Shown piece by piece: positions 1 through 56,633 of a stretch of DNA of 64,000 bases. The position numbers and the translations under genes are program-made. The notes beneath the pieces are model-generated. The model saw nothing but the letters and a program-made list of their open reading frames with translations, was not told the origin of the DNA and ran no database searches. Source of the stretch: Isoptericola halotolerans (GTDB lineage Bacteria > Actinomycetota > Actinomycetes > Actinomycetales > Cellulomonadaceae); the NCBI RefSeq assembly GCF_013149785.1, contig NZ_JABEZU010000001.1, forward strand, positions 868,001-932,000, read 5' to 3'. Position 1 is the first letter of the stretch. Each line of letters begins with the position of its first letter.

Positions 1-1
1 G

Positions 2-271
2 AAGCTCTTCACCGTCGAGGAGCGTGACCTGCCCGCCTCGTCGCTCGCCGCGCGGTTCGCTGCGAAGGAGGCCATCGCCAAGGCTCTCGGTGCTCCGGGG
101 ACCATGCACTGGCACGATGCGACCGTGCATCGGGTGGTCGGCGGTCCGCCTGAGGTGGAGCTGCGGGGCACGGTGCAGGCACGGGCCGACGAGCTGGGTG
201 TGCGGCACTGGCACCTGTCGATCTCCCACGACGCGGGGATCTCCTCGGCCATGGTGATCGCCGAGGGCTGA
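2..271 (+). CDS. acpS: Holo-[acyl-carrier-protein] synthase, 3' part
   Basis: The reading frame is open from the first base of the window and ends at TGA 269-271, so the N-terminus lies outside. The visible 89 residues include the AcpS signature [13 protein letters not shown] followed by LSISHD near the end, both typical of the small trimeric phosphopantetheinyl transferases. AcpS moves 4'-phosphopantetheine from CoA to a serine of apo-ACP in the cytosol. In related actinobacteria acpS sits upstream of nnrD and alr; here a DUF559 gene, an LLM oxidoreductase and a FGE-like gene come between. A strong hairpin follows 13 bases after the stop. Confidence 0.9.
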
Positions 272-283
272 CCCCCTTGGCGC

Positions 284-339
284 CGAGCATGCGGTGACGG
301 CCCGTCCGCGGTGGCAGACGGGCCGTCACCGCATGCTCG
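284..339. terminator. Long perfect hairpin A (23-bp arms)
   Basis: Arms 284-306 and 317-339 are exact reverse complements around a 10-base loop. It lies between the stops of acpS (+) and the AbiEi/DUF559 gene (-), so it can terminate both; there is no U-tract. Its left arm matches hairpin B (1449-1508) and palindrome C (48276-48333) at 22 of 25 positions each. The loop matches that of B at 9 of 10. A stray half-site lies at 352-364. Confidence 0.8.
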
Positions 340-391
340 ACGGTTGCCGGGGCATGCTCGGCGGAGGAGCAGGGTCCACGGGCGGCGGCGG

Positions 392-1333
392 TCAGGATCT
401 CAGCGCGCGCCGCACCGTCCCGGCGATCGAGCCGAGGTCGCGCGACGTGAACCTCAGCAGGTCCACCGCCCCGGTGCCGGTGAGGAGATTCTGCCGGCGG
501 CGGTCGGCAAAGAGCGCCGTGGGTGAACCGTGGACGTCGAGACCGTCCATCTCCACGACGAGCCACCGACCGCCGGCGCGCCACCAGGCCATGTCGCCGC
601 GCGCCACGACCCGGCCCGAGCCGTCGACCAGGGGCAGCTGGAGCATCGTCGGTGGCACACCGGCCTCGATGCACTCCCACCGGGCGAACGACTCCAGGGG
701 CGACTCGGCCCGGGCGTCCGCCTCGCTCCACAGCACATGACGGCTCGCCACACCTCGGCGGCCACGGGCGTGCTCGTGCGACCGCAGCAGGGACGCCCGG
801 GACACGGCCCCGGTCCGCAGTGCAGCGTCCAGCACGGCGAGGCCGTAGCGGTGCGGCAGCTCGGGCACCGACTGGGCGAGGGCCCACTCGACGCTCACCG
901 CCCGGCAGCCGGGCATCTCGACGACCACCATGCCGTCGTCGAACTGGCGCAGGGAGACTCCTTCGCGGTTCCGTCGGTTCACCGCACCCGGCAGGGCAGC
1001 CTCGGCCGGGATGGTCCGGGGGAGCCCGGCGATCCCGTGCAGCGCGAGGGCGCAGCGGCCGACGGCGACCGCGTCCGGTCCGAAGGTGAGCATCGCGAGC
1101 CAGGCCGATCGCCGTCGTCGGGCATCGAGGTCCGACGCCGGTGGTGCCGCGTCGCGGACCTCGTAGACCTGGCGGGCCACACGGCGCCAGCGACATCGTG
1201 CCACCAGCCCGCGGACGTCCTTGTCGCTCAGCCCGAGCTCTCGGCACTGGTCGAGAGCGACCAGGCCCGACTGGTGCAGTGCCAGCCGGTGCAGCGCCGA
1301 GGGCGTCTCTGCTCGTGGATGCATGGCCTGCAT
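392..1333 (-). CDS. AbiEi antitoxin-like / DUF559 nuclease-fold protein (copy 1)
   Basis: This is a 313-residue protein with an N-terminal winged-helix-like region (about 15-70) of the AbiEi antitoxin type and a C-terminal DUF559 domain (about 205-300) related to Vsr-like PD-(D/E)XK nucleases. Visible candidate catalytic residues are E210 and E214 (AESPLESF), D247 and E261-x-D263 (VVEMDG). The frame stays open further upstream to about 1705, but that would run through hairpin B. The start at 1333 places the N-terminus like that of the second copy at 55578. No partner toxin gene is adjacent. Hairpins A and B bracket the gene. Function is inferred from fold; such proteins are common and mostly uncharacterised in actinobacteria. 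Confidence 0.72.
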   Translation of the reverse strand: MQAMHPRAETPSALHRLALHQSGLVALDQCRELGLSDKDVRGLVARCRWRRVARQVYEVRDAAPPASDLDARRRRSAWLAMLTFGPDAVAVGRCALALHGIAGLPRTIPAEAALPGAVNRRNREGVSLRQFDDGMVVVEMPGCRAVSVEWALAQSVPELPHRYGLAVLDAALRTGAVSRASLLRSHEHARGRRGVASRHVLWSEADARAESPLESFARWECIEAGVPPTMLQLPLVDGSGRVVARGDMAWWRAGGRWLVVEMDGLDVHGSPTALFADRRRQNLLTGTGAVDLLRFTSRDLGSIAGTVRRALRS

Positions 1334-1448
1334 CCCAGCAGCCGGGCTCGGGGGGCGGGCACCGGTGTGGCGGTTCTGTGGACGGAGGTCCATGGTGGGC
1401 GGCCTCGTTCCGCCGGACCGTGTGCTCGCCGACCATACCCTACGGCCC

Positions 1449-1508
1449 GCCGACCATGCGATGGCGGCCCGTCCGCGGAGGCAGACGGGCCGCCATCGCA
1501 TGGTCGGC
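1449..1508. terminator. Long perfect hairpin B (25-bp arms)
   Basis: Arms 1449-1473 and 1484-1508 are exact reverse complements with a 10-base loop. It lies between the stop of the LLM oxidoreductase gene and the start of the AbiEi/DUF559 gene, both on the minus strand. It belongs to the same sequence family as hairpin A (22/25 in the arm, 9/10 in the loop). It probably ends transcription from the LLM gene. Confidence 0.8.
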
Positions 1509-1536
1509 GCAGCAGGAGGAGAGAGAGGAGGAGGGG

Positions 1537-2592
1537 TCAGTCCTGGAGCTCGGGGATCACCTGCCGCTGGAACAGCTCGATCTGGTCGCGGTCCCGGGCG
1601 GCGTCGGCGAAGTACGTGATCGCGTAGGTCATGCCCAGCGACCTCATCTCCGTGAGCTTCTCGACGATCTGCTCCGGTGTCCCGACCATGAGCCCGTGGC
1701 GCCACAGCGAGCTCTCACGGTGTCCCTTGTCACCGGGCGCGTACCGGGCGAAGTGGTCGTCGATCCACGCGAGCTTGTCGTCGATCGCTGCCTGGTTCTC
1801 GCCGATCACCACGTTGTAGTTGGCCGAGCGGGTGATCTCGCCGAAGTCCCGCCCGACGTCGCGGCAGTGCTCCTCGAGGATCCTCGACCTGTGCGCGAAC
1901 TCCTCCGGGCTGCCCGAGAAGTTCGTGTACTGCGCGTGCTGCGCGGCGATGCGCAGGGTCTTCTTCTCGCCGCCGCCCGCGATCCACAGCGGGATGCTCG
2001 GGACCTCCGCGCCGCCGTCCCCGACGGGCAGCTGCTGCAGCGGCTGCGGGTAGCACAGTGCCCCGTCCACCTGGTACCGCTTGCCCTCGAAGGTGCCGGA
2101 CGACCCGGTGCGCCACATGCGCTCCATGATCTGCACGCCTTCGTCCAGCGCACGCAGCCGCTCCCCGGCGGTGGGGAAGCCGTAGCCGTACGCCCGCCAC
2201 TCGTGCTCGTACCAGCCCGCGCCGATGCCCATCTCGACGCGGCCGCCGGAGATCGCGTCCACGGTGGAGGCGACCTTCGCCAGGTAGGTCGGCTCGCGGT
2301 AGGCCATGCAGGTGCACATCTGCCCGAGCCGCACCCGCTGGGAGGCGGCGGCGAAGGCGGCCATGAGCGACCAGGCCTCGTGCGTCGCCTCGGTGCTGGC
2401 GACCGGGACGGTGTGGAAGTGGTCGTAGACCCACACCGACTCCCAGGCGAACTCGCCGCCCGGGACGGCCTCGCCGGCCGCGGCGTTGTCGGCGTAGTGG
2501 AGGAGAGACAGCATCGTCTCCCAGTGCTGCTCCGGGGGGATGTCGGTGAGCGACATACGCCAGCCCTGCGGGATGAAGAGTCCGAATCGCAT
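1537..2592 (-). CDS. LLM-class F420-dependent (or FMN) oxidoreductase
   Basis: A 351-residue protein of the luciferase-like monooxygenase TIM-barrel superfamily. It begins MRFGLFIPQGW and contains the family block GGRVEMGIGAGWYEHEWRAYG, then VPLWIAGGG-like and GTPEQIVEKL segments near the C-terminus. The family uses F420 or FMN with varied substrates, and the substrate cannot be told here. The start is supported by a -10-like TAGGCT 6 nt upstream, with no Shine-Dalgarno, implying a leaderless mRNA. It is divergent from the FGE-like gene. Actinobacterial proteins of this shape are usually annotated TIGR03560-type F420 oxidoreductases; that assignment is from memory. Confidence 0.85.
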   Translation of the reverse strand: MRFGLFIPQGWRMSLTDIPPEQHWETMLSLLHYADNAAAGEAVPGGEFAWESVWVYDHFHTVPVASTEATHEAWSLMAAFAAASQRVRLGQMCTCMAYREPTYLAKVASTVDAISGGRVEMGIGAGWYEHEWRAYGYGFPTAGERLRALDEGVQIMERMWRTGSSGTFEGKRYQVDGALCYPQPLQQLPVGDGGAEVPSIPLWIAGGGEKKTLRIAAQHAQYTNFSGSPEEFAHRSRILEEHCRDVGRDFGEITRSANYNVVIGENQAAIDDKLAWIDDHFARYAPGDKGHRESSLWRHGLMVGTPEQIVEKLTEMRSLGMTYAITYFADAARDRDQIELFQRQVIPELQD

Positions 2593-2598
2593 GCCGCG

Positions 2599-2604
2599 AG
2601 CCTA
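2599..2604 (-). promoter_or_regulatory. -10 box of leaderless LLM gene
   Basis: TAGGCT on the minus strand, 6 nt before the ATG at 2592. It fits the actinobacterial TANNNT -10 with transcription beginning at or next to the start codon. Confidence 0.55.
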
Positions 2605-2612
2605 GTCCGGTC

Positions 2613-2660
2613 GTGCCTGCGGCGCGCCCCTCGTCCGTGCCTGCGGCGCGCCCCTCGTCC
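2613..2660. repeat. 24-bp direct tandem repeat, two copies
   Basis: Two exact copies of a 24-bp unit (2613-2636 and 2637-2660) lie in the short divergent region between the LLM and FGE-like genes. The unit length is a multiple of three, so a GTG-initiated frame reads through it into the FGE-like gene. The downstream ATG at 2688 is the more likely start. Confidence 0.85.
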
Positions 2661-2687
2661 GGGCGCGCGTCGTGGCACGCTGGACGC

Positions 2688-3473
2688 ATGACCTCTGTGC
2701 TCGCCGGACCACCGTCGATGCTCTCCGTGCCGGCCGGGACGATCGACCTGCGCGACGCGCGGACGGGCTCGGTCCGTGAGGTCGGGCTGCAACCGTTCTC
2801 GATCGGGGCGACACCGGTCACGCGACGACAGTGGGAGCTCGTCGGACCATCGTCCGCGCGCGAGCGCCCGACCGTCCCCGTGCGTCCCGTCTCCTGGTTC
2901 GACGCCGTGTCCTGGTGCAACGCCGCCTCGACGACGGCGGGCCTCCGGACGGCCTACACGATCGAGGGCCGGGCGGTCACCTGGGACACCACCGCCGACG
3001 GGTTCCGTCTGCCCACCGAGGCCGAGTGGGAGCATGCGGCCCGCGCCGGCAGCACCGCCCCGACCTACGGTCCGCTCGCGGCGGTCGCCTGGACGGCTCT
3101 CGACGAGGTCGACGGCGTGCAGCCGGTCGCGCGCAAGGAACCGAACGCGTTCGGGGTCTACGACATGCTCGGCAACGTCTGGGAGTGGTGCTGGGACTAC
3201 GCCGACCCGGCACGGTACGCGGACTACCGGGTGCTCCGGGGCGGCGGCTGGGCGGACCGGCACTGGAGCGTCCGCGCCTCGGTGCGCCGGGGGAGCCTGC
3301 CCGAGGCACGGCTCGAGGACGTGGGGTTCCGTGTGGCGCGTGGGGCCGTCGGGCAGGTCGGTTCCGCGCAGGGGTGGTCCGCGCGACGCGACCGGGAGCG
3401 CGCGGACGTCCGTGGTCCGGTGCCGTTCGGCTGGACGCCGCTGCGGGAGCTGCTCGAGGACGGTGCTCGGTGA
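2688..3473 (+). CDS. Formylglycine-generating-enzyme-like (SUMF1/EgtB fold) protein
   Basis: A 261-residue protein with the FGE-sulfatase fold, shown by PVSWFDAVSWCNAAS, FRLPTEAEWEHAARAG, NVWEWCWDY, VLRGGGW and the final GFRVAR. True formylglycine-generating enzymes carry a C-terminal cysteine pair that binds copper. Here the only cysteines are in SWCN and EWCW, so sulfatase maturation is doubtful and a structural or other non-heme-metal role is possible. No sulfatase gene is nearby. ATG 2688 was chosen over in-frame starts inside the tandem repeat. The stop TGA overlaps the GTG of nnrD, so the two are probably co-transcribed. Confidence 0.72.
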   Translation: MTSVLAGPPSMLSVPAGTIDLRDARTGSVREVGLQPFSIGATPVTRRQWELVGPSSARERPTVPVRPVSWFDAVSWCNAASTTAGLRTAYTIEGRAVTWDTTADGFRLPTEAEWEHAARAGSTAPTYGPLAAVAWTALDEVDGVQPVARKEPNAFGVYDMLGNVWEWCWDYADPARYADYRVLRGGGWADRHWSVRASVRRGSLPEARLEDVGFRVARGAVGQVGSAQGWSARRDRERADVRGPVPFGWTPLRELLEDGAR

Positions 3474-12598: not shown

Positions 12599-12604
12599 CG
12601 AAGG

Positions 12605-12675
12605 TTGTGGGCGCGATTTCTGGCCCGTCTTGTCCCGCGAAACGGGATGAAACCGGCCAGAAATCGCGCCCACAA
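12605..12675. terminator. Bidirectional hairpin terminator (21-bp arms, nested inner stem)
   Basis: Arms 12605-12625 and 12655-12675 are exact reverse complements. The 29-base interior itself contains TCCCG-cgaaa-CGGGA. It lies between the convergent sulfurtransferase and nitroreductase genes and can terminate both. It also marks the left edge of the accessory nitrogen region. Confidence 0.8.
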
Positions 12676-12699
12676 CGCTTGGGGCAGCGTCGCCTGGGT

Positions 12700-48255: not shown

Positions 48256-48275
48256 TTCTGGCGGCCCGTCCCCTG

Positions 48276-48333
48276 CCGAGCATGCGCTGAGGGACCGTCC
48301 GGTCGACCGGACGGTCCCTCAGCGCATGCTCGG
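48276..48333. terminator. 58-bp perfect palindrome C between gntP and ackA
   Basis: Arms 48276-48304 and 48305-48333 (29 bp each) are exact reverse complements with no loop. It lies between the convergent gntP and ackA genes and can serve both as terminator. Its outer 25 bases match hairpin A near the start of the window at 22 positions. Confidence 0.85.
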
Positions 48334-48391
48334 CGGTGACCGTCAGCCGGCGGTGACCGTCAGCCGGCGGTGACCGTCAGCCGGCGGTGAC
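48331..48391. repeat. 17-bp tandem repeat over the ackA stop
   Basis: A 17-bp unit is present three times exactly (48331-48347, 48348-48364, 48365-48381) plus a partial copy. Each full unit contains a copy of the ackA C-terminal codons and stop, so the stop codon is echoed downstream of the gene. The unit begins at the right end of palindrome C. Confidence 0.88.
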
Positions 48392-49660
48392 CGCCGCCGC
48401 CGGCCGCCGCCCGTCGACCGCCTCGACGCACTGGCGGGCGATCGCGAGCTCCTCCTGGGTCGGGACCACCATGACCAGGGTCGACGTCCAGTCGGGGGAG
48501 ATGATCCGCTCCCCGCCGCGCGCGGCGTTGCGGTCCGCGTCGACGGCGATCCCGAAGCCCTCGAGGCCCTCGCAGACGGCGGCCCGCACCGCAGGGTCGT
48601 TCTCGCCGACGCCCGCGGTGAAGGCGACGACGTCCACCCGGCCGAGCAGGGCCGCGTACGCGCCGACGTACTTCTTGAGCCGGTGGACGTAGACGTCGAA
48701 CGCGAGGGCCGCGCCGTCGTCGCCGGCGTCGATCAGCTGCCGCAGCTCCCGGAAGTCGTTGACCCCGGACAGCCCGAGCATGCCCGAGCGCTTGTTGAGC
48801 AGCGTGTCGAGCTCGTCGATGCTCATGCCCGCGTTGCGCGCCAGGTGGAAGACGACCGCCGGGTCGACGTCGCCGGAGCGGGTGCCCATGACCAGGCCCT
48901 CCAGCGGGGTCAGCCCCATCGAGGTGTCCACCGGCACCCCGCCGCGGACGGCCGACGCGGACGCACCGTTGCCGAGGTGCAGCACGATCGTGTGGAGGTC
49001 CTGCACGCGACGGCCCAGCACGCGCGCCACCTTGCCGGCGACGTACTGGTGGCTGGTGCCGTGGAACCCGTAGCGGCGCACGTCGTGCGCGGCGGCGACC
49101 TCCCGGTCGATCGCGTAGGTGTAGGCCGCCGCGGGCAGCTGCTGGAAGAACGCCGTGTCGAACACCGCCACGTGCGGCACGTCGGCCAGCAGCTCGCGAG
49201 CCACCCGGATGCCCTGCACGTTCGCCGGGTTGTGCAGGGGAGCGAGCGGCACCAGGGCCTCGATCCGGTCCACCACGCCGTCGTCGACCACCACCGGCCC
49301 GGAGAACTCCGCCCCGCCGTGCACCACCCGGTGCCCGACGGCGTAGATCCCGGCGTCCGCGAGCCGCGGGCCGATCTCGTCGAACATCCCCAGCGCGATC
49401 CGCAACGCCTCGCCGTGGTCCGGGACCTCGAGCTCGCGCCGGGTGCGGTTGCCGGCGAAGGTATGGCTGACGATGCCGCCCGAGGAGCCACCCGACTCGC
49501 CGATGCGCTCGATCGTCCCCGCGGCGATCGCCTCCCCGCCGACCGGGTTGACGAGCTGGTACTTCAGCGACGAAGAGCCCGAGTTCAGCACCAGCACCGA
49601 CCCGTGCGCCCCGTACGCGCTGTACGGGTTGGGCCGCTCGGCCTCGGGGAGGATGCTCAT
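48377..49660 (-). CDS. ackA: Acetate kinase
   Basis: A 427-residue ASKHA kinase converting acetyl phosphate and ADP to acetate and ATP. It has VLVLNSGSSSLKYQL, GHRVVHGG, VFDTAFFQQLP, YGFHGTSHQYV, LHLGNGASASAV, GLTPLEGLVMGTRSGDVDP and FTAGVGENDP. The first 20 residues are an extension rich in Pro/Tyr. The ATG overlaps the pta stop (ATGA). Together with Xfp and Pta it yields ATP from acetyl phosphate. Confidence 0.96.
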   Translation of the reverse strand: MSILPEAERPNPYSAYGAHGSVLVLNSGSSSLKYQLVNPVGGEAIAAGTIERIGESGGSSGGIVSHTFAGNRTRRELEVPDHGEALRIALGMFDEIGPRLADAGIYAVGHRVVHGGAEFSGPVVVDDGVVDRIEALVPLAPLHNPANVQGIRVARELLADVPHVAVFDTAFFQQLPAAAYTYAIDREVAAAHDVRRYGFHGTSHQYVAGKVARVLGRRVQDLHTIVLHLGNGASASAVRGGVPVDTSMGLTPLEGLVMGTRSGDVDPAVVFHLARNAGMSIDELDTLLNKRSGMLGLSGVNDFRELRQLIDAGDDGAALAFDVYVHRLKKYVGAYAALLGRVDVVAFTAGVGENDPAVRAAVCEGLEGFGIAVDADRNAARGGERIISPDWTSTLVMVVPTQEELAIARQCVEAVDGRRPAAAVTAG

Positions 49661-55462: not shown

Positions 55463-55518
55463 CGAGCGTGCTGCAATCTTCCTCAACACCGTGCCGTGAG
55501 GGACACTCCAGCACGCTC
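55463..55518. repeat. Hairpin D upstream of AbiEi/DUF559 copy 2
   Basis: Arms 55464-55473 (GAGCGTGCTG) and 55509-55518 (CAGCACGCTC) are perfect. The left side (55463-55482) matches the left arm of hairpin E (56555-56574) at 16 of 20 positions, and the right sides share CAGCACGCTCGA. It looks like a decayed copy of E and may also terminate the SURF1 transcript. Confidence 0.65.
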
Positions 55519-55577
55519 GATGCGGAGCCTGTGGGTAACGCCAGCGGCGTTCGGTCAAGCCTGCTCTGCTGTGCGGC

Positions 55578-56591
55578 ATGTCTCGACGAGCACGGCCGGT
55601 CCCCTCGCAGCTGAAGGTGCTCGCGCGCCGACAAGCCGGATTGCTGGCGATGGCACAGTGCCTCGACGCGGGCATGACGCCCCGGCAGGTCAGCCGGCGC
55701 GTCGAGTCCAAGGCGTGGGACCGGGTTGTGCGCGGGGTCTACGACACGGGTGAGCCGGTTCCGGCATCGATGTCGGAACGGCTTGATCAGCAGCGTCGCC
55801 GGAGCGCGCTCGTCGGACCGCTCTCGCAGCCCCGAGGGATCGCCGTCGGGCTGGGTGCGCTCGTGCTCCATGGCGTGCGTGGCGCCCCCATCGAGATCCC
55901 GTGGGAGGTCGCGGTCCCCCGGGCACAGCCTCGGAAGCCGGCAGGGCCTGTTCGCGTCCGGCGGATCCTGGTCCCGCAGCCGATGAACGTCCAGGGCATC
56001 CCGTGCATGTCCGTACCCCAGGCGTTGGGCCTCGCTGTCCCGACGATGCACCGGTTCGAGGCCGTCGCGATGATCGACTCGGCACGGTACCGGGGGCTCC
56101 TGTCCGATGCGGAGCTGGCGTGGGCGTGCAGCACCACTGCTGGTCGGCGTGGTGCTGCGACGAGCCGGAGCTGGTGGGCCGAGTCGGACGCCCGTGCCGA
56201 GTCGCCGGCGGAGTCGTGGGCGCGGCTGTCCTGCTCCGAGGCGGGCTGCCCTCCCGATGCTCTCCAGCTGTGGACGCTGGCCGGTGGCCGTTGGTATCGG
56301 CTCGACCTCGCATGGGTGCTGCCCGGCGGCGGACTGCTCATCGTTGAGATCGACGGTCGCGAGGTGCACGATCGGATCGAGGCGCTCTACGAGGACCGTG
56401 AGCGGCAGAACCGGCTGGTGACGCCGTGGACGATCCTGCGGCGGTACACGGGGCGCGACGCGCGGTCCGGCGTCATGGCGGCCGAGGTCTCGCTGCTGCT
56501 GAAGAGCCGCGGATGGCGGCCTCAGCCGCTCGATGTCGACGCTGCCTACGACGTCGAACGTGCTGGGTTCTTCCGAAAACGCCGTTCTTGA
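55578..56591 (+). CDS. AbiEi antitoxin-like / DUF559 nuclease-fold protein (copy 2)
   Basis: A 337-residue paralogue-like relative of the gene at 392-1333. The N-terminus (LARRQAGLLAMAQCLDAGMT, RRVESKAWDRVVRGVY) is the AbiEi-like winged helix. The C-terminal DUF559 part has E208 and E212 (AESPAESW), D243 (RLDLAW), and E257-x-D259 (IVEIDG), at nearly the same spacing as copy 1. No AbiEii toxin gene is adjacent. The last codons and stop lie inside hairpin E, so the hairpin encodes the C-terminal residues. Confidence 0.72.
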   Translation: MSRRARPVPSQLKVLARRQAGLLAMAQCLDAGMTPRQVSRRVESKAWDRVVRGVYDTGEPVPASMSERLDQQRRRSALVGPLSQPRGIAVGLGALVLHGVRGAPIEIPWEVAVPRAQPRKPAGPVRVRRILVPQPMNVQGIPCMSVPQALGLAVPTMHRFEAVAMIDSARYRGLLSDAELAWACSTTAGRRGAATSRSWWAESDARAESPAESWARLSCSEAGCPPDALQLWTLAGGRWYRLDLAWVLPGGGLLIVEIDGREVHDRIEALYEDRERQNRLVTPWTILRRYTGRDARSGVMAAEVSLLLKSRGWRPQPLDVDAAYDVERAGFFRKRRS

Positions 56592-56613
56592 GGAAGAACC
56601 CAGCACGCTCGAC
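56553..56613. terminator. Hairpin E at the 3' end of copy 2
   Basis: Arms 56553-56574 and 56592-56613 pair at 21 of 22 positions around a 17-base loop that contains the stop codon. It lies between the convergent DUF559 gene and the ABC exporter gene and can terminate both. Confidence 0.8.
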
Positions 56614-56633
56614 GCGCAACGCGGGGCGGGCGC

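Follow-up and report, generated by a model that had tools for sequence, protein, structure and literature searches.

Why should a bacterial nuclease-like gene stand between two long and closely similar palindromes? The question is raised by a 64,000-nt stretch of Isoptericola halotolerans DNA (hereafter the window), in which a minus-strand gene (392-1333) encodes a 313-residue protein predicted to combine an AbiEi-like DNA-binding part with a Vsr/EDxHD-like nuclease part. As claimed in a preliminary description of this DNA, the gene is bracketed by palindrome A (284-339) on its 3′ side and palindrome B (1448-1509) on its 5′ side, and the two resemble one another closely, the 23-nt arms differing at 3 positions and the loops at 1. 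Palindrome A is a 56-bp core with an imperfect extension to 281-342; it has perfect 23-bp arms and a 10-nt loop, and the acpS stop codon lies 12 bp ahead of it. Palindrome B (core 1451-1506) has 26-bp arms and a loop of the same 10 nt. The isolated half-site that had been noticed near A is real: its core, CATGCTCG (353-360), lies on the gene side of A at a distance of exactly 21 bp, and a counterpart with one mismatch, CGACCATA (1430-1437), lies on the gene side 21 bp from B. A and B belong to a sequence family that we call F1, and a dispersed solo member, palindrome C (48275-48334), is indeed the perfect palindrome without a neighboring nuclease gene that had been described; it stands behind a stop codon. 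Beside C (48333-48395) are some 3 tandem copies of a 17-bp unit, CGGTGACCGTCAGCCGG. Another long but imperfect hairpin (12604-12676; 34-nt arms, 88% complementary) lies between two minus-strand ORFs, and possibly represents another palindrome family without an adjoining nuclease gene.

The second bracketed gene that had been reported at 55-57 kb is likewise present, and its palindromes are of a different sequence family from A and B, each of the two cassettes having a family of its own. This AbiEi_4/Vsr-like nuclease gene (55578-56591, plus strand, 337 aa) lies between SURF1 and an ABC-transporter gene; a 57-bp palindrome of the CGAGCGTGCTG family precedes it (55463-55519), and a palindrome of the same family (56552-56614) overlaps its last codons. 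An exact-pattern search of the whole genome found no further CGAGCGTGCTG-family palindrome away from this gene, the one additional match to the pattern (C1:1070758) having an interior that is not palindromic; palindromes of this family were found at the second window gene only, and palindrome dispersal is therefore not universal.

What kind of protein do these palindromes enclose? Residues 9-193 of the window protein (the product of 392-1333) match AbiEi (PADLOC, E 2.6e-16). The protein itself has no Pfam match, and a Pfam search of 41 relatives at E 0.01 finds AbiEi_4 in 31, MTES_1575 REase in 6, DUF559 in 1, and no other family, HUH/Y1 transposase domain included. The AlphaFold model (pLDDT 92, pTM 0.89) has as its best solved fold the AbiEi antitoxin 6y8q (E 2.9e-4; TM 0.33 by query, 0.47 by target), and also resembles Rv2827c (1zel; E 0.027, prob 0.89); the C-terminal part returns weak nuclease fold matches only, including VRR-Nuc and the catalytic domain of I-Bth0305I (prob 0.66, E 0.57). 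Thus, of the Vsr-like nuclease with a DNA-binding part that had been proposed, the DNA-binding part matches AbiEi, and the nuclease part has fold matches that are nuclease-like but weak. Five residues (E214, D247, E261, D263, and H268 in window-protein numbering) are invariant across the 41 sequences, and this E, D, E-x-D, H set is what we would presume to find in an active PD-(D/E)XK/EDxHD-type enzyme.

Bracketing is not peculiar to the window. A search with P0001 found relatives of the nuclease gene in all 18 genomes of the genus (weak matches to the C-terminal part alone being mostly left out of the loci fetched), and long hairpins are present on both sides of 45 of 107 relatives, as against 0 of 154 shifted control positions. 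At a hairpin score of at least 12, the 47 genus loci (a set apart from three gene-fragment loci, L118, L119, and L122) divide into 25 with hairpins on both sides, 19 with a hairpin on one side, and 3 with neither (L086, L105, and L109). The two palindromes of one gene are mostly alike, and the sequences differ from gene to gene: i) in 46 of the 47 loci, the summed similarity between upstream and downstream flanks is 1840, compared with a maximum of 1234 in 20,000 permutations, and the median score is 41 for own pairs but 17 for mismatched pairs; ii) the own partner is the best match in 26 of these 46 loci, part of the others matching a locus at the same site; iii) matched flanks (score at least 28) are found in 36 of the 46 genus loci and in 47 of 59 loci from Cellulomonas, Cellulosimicrobium, Oerskovia, Promicromonospora, and other genera, but in only 8 of 154 shifted controls; iv) by the same score, 12 of 29 class-wide loci (30 less the window's own) have matched flanks, versus 0.86% of 812 cross pairs; and v) protein and palindrome similarity are correlated over the 85 loci that remain once short, divergent, and hairpin-less loci are set aside (Mantel r 0.32, p 0.001). 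The 59 outside-genus loci are those left of 80 after removal of one short locus and of 20 that probably repeat loci of the 18 genus genomes; a few of the 20, from I. variabilis, may be independent. A median of 120 bp separates the end of the upstream palindrome from the matched start, the downstream palindrome typically lies at the stop codon (median -1), and a tag, CGAnC, is present in many of the palindromes. A link between the hairpins and DUF559-type genes, first suggested by the window, is strongly supported by this cognate, gene-specific bracketing, and we regard it as very probable that each encoded protein recognises its own palindromes.

Some of the palindromes have also dispersed. 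A scan of the 3.97-Mb window genome (G000) with up to 2 mismatches finds 19 copies of F1, mostly near stop codons, and no copy of the reversed pattern; among the other genomes of the genus there are 14 copies in G011, 9 in G008, 8 in G003, 3 in G013, and 1 in G005, and none within this limit in the remaining 12 of the 18, a degenerate copy in G007 lying beyond it. The F1 gene itself is held by G000, G011, and G008 (in G008 as a fragment); G003, with its 8 copies, has no F1 gene. A second dispersed family, F2 (the CGAGCGTCTCTG family), has 17 copies in G003, 14 in G008, 10 in G006, and 8 each in G000 and G001, and these are exactly the five genomes with an F2-bracketed cassette at chromosomal site S3; the other 13 hold 0 to 3 copies (Mann-Whitney p 1.2e-4, a statistic that ignores phylogeny), and G004, G005, and G009, whose genes at the same site have other or weak palindromes, hold 0, 0, and 1. 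Dispersal thus follows the resident cassette, clearly for F2 and less so for F1. Length is constant within each family: F1 is 56 bp long, with arms starting exactly 33 nt apart in the 17 copies for which both arms are listed, and F2 is 57 bp in all 67 copies from a search that allowed a 30-nt range. By a simple gene caller, the distance to a stop codon is 9-44 bp for 15 of the 16 F1 copies surveyed among the 19 in the window genome, several of these copies standing between convergent genes; in the other genomes it is at most 45 bp for 21 of 26 F1 copies, and 4 of the others overlap a predicted gene. For F2 (35 copies in three genomes, cassette copies excluded), 24 have a stop codon no more than 45 bp away and 7 have none so near; the remaining 4 overlap predicted genes. 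Part of the dispersed copies are at shared chromosomal positions between genomes, and others are not.

The dispersed F2 copies evolve in concert. Over the 12 positions of the inner stem, copies differ by 3.4 on average within genomes and 6.0 between genomes, a difference of 2.55 where the permutation maximum was 0.62; seven pairs of F2 copies at the same positions in G003 and G008 differ by 4.3, hardly less than all G003/G008 pairs (4.5); and in each of the five genomes compared, the gene-flanking F2 copies are closer to the dispersed copies of their own genome than to those of others. We conclude that a trans-acting factor homogenises or selects F2 palindromes. The strength of the effect varies by genome, since the mean distance among copies is 2.1 within G008 but 4.7 within G003. 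Genome-wide concerted evolution of F1 was considered and rejected: inner stems differ by 3.66 within genomes, 4.60 between genomes, and 3.64 at orthologous positions, a small effect with slight genome-specificity, unlike that in F2. One F1 palindrome of G011 (L151, C20:82548) is a hybrid, its arms carrying the stems of that genome's upstream and downstream gene-flanking palindromes, as expected from a crossover at the palindrome center.

The extra half-sites seen beside A and B are likewise a more general feature. At 25 of 48 F1 copies the half-site CGANCATG is present exactly 21 bp from the palindrome edge, on one side only and never on both; with one mismatch allowed there are 33 at offset 21 and 5 or fewer at any other offset. 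Among 139 cassette-end hairpins, the tag recurs on the gene side at 22 bp (19) or 21 bp (5), these 24 copies coming from 18 loci, and 2 lie at these offsets on the outer side (one mismatch allowed throughout); the tag changes along with the palindrome, for example to CGAGCACG or CGAACCGG. The extra half-site is absent at 23 of the 48 F1 copies and 115 of the 139 cassette-end hairpins, and nearly absent in F2 (2 of 42 copies at 21-22 bp). A G-U pair is tolerated by RNA alone, and across 57 upstream and 70 downstream hairpins the non-Watson-Crick pairs comprise 56 G-T and 75 A-C (p 0.12). The phased extra half-site and the absence of a G-U bias point to double-stranded DNA, rather than RNA or terminators, as the form in which these palindromes function, and a spacing of two helical turns with fixed polarity is what would suit a protein that reads one face of that DNA.

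We think it probable that each palindrome-gene-palindrome cassette is a REPtron-like unit in which a nuclease gene is kept together with its own DNA target, and the balance of evidence tips, if not far, toward the nuclease driving the spread and homogenisation of the palindromes. Specifically, the AbiEi-type winged-helix part would bind half-sites in double-stranded DNA, with the tag CGAnC..G at the outer end of the arms; two half-sites would form the palindrome, and some copies would have a third, two helical turns off and, at cassettes, toward the gene; the Vsr/EDxHD-like domain at the C-terminus may then nick or cut at the palindromes; repair from another copy would homogenise the palindromes and copy them to new gene ends; and the same repair could flip the cassette or delete it down to one lone palindrome. 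Repair between copies would thus account both for the spread and concerted change of the palindromes, the likeness of a cassette's two ends included, and for flips and lone palindromes. The comparisons show the outcomes, namely the anatomy, the gene-specific matching, the dispersal with the resident cassette and the concerted evolution of F2, the inversions in place, the polymorphism of sites, and the phased half-sites; that the protein binds and cuts, and that repair does the copying, we infer.

The main rival is that the palindromes are operators only, an AbiEi-like repressor autoregulating through the upstream copy and governing a regulon through the dispersed ones, the nuclease fold being vestigial or having some other target. 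According to the accessible text of PMC7319586, AbiEi autoregulates and occupies a pair of 23-bp inverted repeats, with 3 bp between them, in its own promoter, and Rv2827c does likewise with four such repeats; the F1 arm is also 23 bp long. The position of the upstream palindrome ahead of the gene start suits an operator, some F2 copies lie between 5′ gene ends, and coevolution of a regulator with its sites would likewise produce concerted change. However, a matched palindrome is also found at the 3′ end of the gene; the dispersed copies lie mostly behind stop codons; the inner stems, far from the tag, remain palindromic in both F1 and F2; the acidic residues of the nuclease part are invariant; and cassette flips and lone palindromes (below) require recombination. 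The comparison with AbiE itself is similarly divided, because the likeness of fold and of paired inverted repeats near the gene is set against an extra (predicted) nuclease domain, palindromes at both gene ends and for some genes also dispersed, and the lack of an AbiEii toxin gene beside the two window genes, whose neighbors are acpS and LLM in one case and SURF1 and an ABC-transporter gene in the other. We consider the operator reading unlikely.

It is a good deal less probable that the palindromes are bidirectional intrinsic terminators, or insulators, of similar sequence, which was the plain alternative entertained in the preliminary description. Their location close behind stop codons, and in several cases between convergent genes, is where terminators would be expected, but T makes up just 10% of the 12 nt after the downstream hairpins, there is no T tract and no G-U preference, and a terminator consensus scan of 1-3000 (which allows loops of 3-8 only) finds none at A or B. 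Nor would termination explain the gene-specific matching, the fixed length of 56 or 57 bp, or the half-sites in helical phase.

Returning to the REPtron-like reading, how long have the cassettes resided where they are found? Synteny places the genus loci at about nine sites, and in a tree of the 41 proteins most cluster by chromosomal site, which argues that residence is old and vertical; the exceptions are S3, which is unresolved, S7, whose group takes in one protein from elsewhere, and S9, which intermixes with a neighboring site. At S2, S4, and S6 the whole cassette is inverted in some genomes while the flanks remain collinear, homology breaking at the palindromes or within about 110 bp of them, and the inverted cassettes nest within the clade of their own site (full support for S2 and S4, 89/84 for S6). 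Some of these genomes are draft assemblies, so that single cases may reflect misassembly across near-identical palindromes. At S7 a different clade is present in the opposite orientation.

Empty sites in related genomes, which the preliminary description had held to be telling, do exist, both at the acpS-LLM site of the window cassette and at one F2 site. Among the 16 of 18 genomes in which acpS was found, the cassette is present in G000, in G011, and, as a gene fragment, in G008; a lone F1-type palindrome stands in G003 and, in degenerate form, in G007 and G013; G012 has a lone palindrome from a different family; G014, G009, G017, and G005 have no palindrome at the site; G006, G002, G004, and G010 have other sequence; and in G001 LLM was not found within 1.5 kb of acpS. 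A lone palindrome is the expected remnant of recombination between the end palindromes, or else the state before gene gain. G000, G012, and G008 carry the palindrome at the F2 site; 11 genomes have just a 10-35 bp spacer; G007, also without the palindrome, reads GCGAG at its would-be start; in G011 no palindrome is clearly visible; and G015 has no left flank and G010 lies outside coverage. Two further observations were made at the acpS-LLM site. In G008 the decayed F1 nuclease gene (L115/L148/L164; about 120 aa matched) is still bracketed by F1 palindromes with inner half-sites, and in G012 the lone palindrome (L165) resembles the palindrome beside that genome's L089 nuclease gene.

These data also bear on whether the whole cassette moves as a classical transposable element, its ends palindromic and its transposase of Vsr fold, which we consider very improbable. 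Part of the cassettes do have polarised compound ends, with the palindrome outside and the half-site inside; sites are polymorphic for presence and absence; and at the SURF1 site of the second cassette the nuclease clades differ between species. Against this stand the clustering of proteins by chromosomal site and the absence of any match to the window protein (E 1e-5) among 72,556 plasmid and 50,697 phage records. A picture of the gene as mobile holds only in part: a cassette stays at its site over long periods, where it may flip or be lost, and it is the palindrome that disperses. Least probable of all is a function in RNA, with mRNA hairpins bound or cut by the protein, for although the downstream palindrome often overlaps the last codons and would be transcribed, the hairpins have no G-U bias, the half-site spacing is two helical turns of double-stranded DNA, the dispersed copies are mostly intergenic, and an RNA-family assignment fails in that the window has no Rfam match.

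The known systems that most resemble these cassettes are the REPtrons, in which, as described in the accessible text of PMC6006769 and PMC8266576, a gene is flanked by cognate palindromes, each gene type has its own palindrome family with dispersed copies, several types coexist in one genome, and the gene is mostly vertically inherited. The likeness extends to flanking by a gene's own cognate palindromes, to their dispersal in intergenic DNA (F1 and F2, a few copies overlapping predicted genes, though not the family of the second window gene), and to vertical inheritance with one gene per palindrome type. The differences are i) a protein with an AbiEi-type winged helix-turn-helix and a Vsr/EDxHD-like nuclease part in place of the HUH/Y1 domain, for which the 41 members gave no match; ii) longer palindromes (56/57 bp) with the tag CGAnC, where REPtrons have GTAG; iii) half-site phasing that suggests a double-stranded substrate, where that of REPtrons is folded single-stranded DNA; and iv) cassettes that flip in place. 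Because the HUH transposase is a defining feature of REPtrons, the cassettes are not REPtrons by membership; the REP/RAYT comparison drawn at the outset is strongly supported in its logic and fails in its enzyme, no RAYT (HUH) domain having been found in the protein.

TIRtrons offer a second parallel, in that related genes of one genome carry different repeats, only some of them dispersed (Di Nocera 2013, PMC3733652); the nuclease genes here are decorated in the same way, but TIRYTs are tyrosine transposases, whereas the present enzyme is nuclease-like. The accessible text of that paper also describes CGTC-tagged REPs without a known dedicated enzyme, and makes no mention of Actinobacteria, Cellulomonas, or DUF559. 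A resemblance to the Vsr/DUF559/EDxHD enzymes, represented by I-Bth0305I, lies in a predicted C-terminal domain with conserved E, D, E-x-D, and H, whose fold is weakly similar to those of I-Bth0305I and other nucleases of the PD-(D/E)XK type; unlike homing endonuclease genes, the two window genes lie neither in an intron nor beside a methylase gene, and the adjoining palindromes appear to be what the enzyme targets. The DUF559 protein VsrA of Caulobacter has been studied as a putative mismatch-repair endonuclease, in a paper whose accessible text does not contain the words hairpin or palindrome (PMC12907096). Among the open-access papers that our searches listed, we found no description of palindrome-bracketed DUF559/AbiEi genes, which is weak evidence of absence.

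The many nuclease-like genes of soil actinobacteria with matching palindromes suggest an undescribed palindrome-spreading system that employs an unfamiliar kind of enzyme. To our knowledge, the HUH RAYTs are the single class of enzyme linked to REP palindromes to date. We are evenly divided on the fullest form of our interpretation, that REPtrons evolved a second time, independently and in a form widespread in Actinomycetes, in which an AbiEi-type DNA reader joined to a Vsr/EDxHD nuclease would use phased half-sites in double-stranded DNA to recognise 56/57-bp palindromes of its own, its cutting driving their copying, homogenisation, and dispersal and the flipping of cassettes. If so, semi-domesticated repeat systems would have arisen more than once, in this case around a nuclease that is not homologous to the RAYTs and has palindrome families of its own; an actinobacterial gene family that is common (present in 123 of the 196 class genomes sampled) but unexplained would gain a role; and many of the AbiEi/DUF559 genes that are unexplained in Actinobacteria would each maintain a palindrome family. 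Natural pairs of enzyme and site, differing in specificity, would then be available in number, and both recognition and spread could be tested directly.

A minor observation concerns the SURF1 site: the DUF559 gene behind SURF1 in G001 and G003 belongs to a second, more remote clade, and the palindromes on its two sides are nearly identical and contain an internal repeat (CGAGATCGACGTACC... in G001); in reverse-complement coordinates these palindromes lie at 969-1047 and 2116-2190 of locus L286, and at 938-1006 and 2050-2116 of L287.
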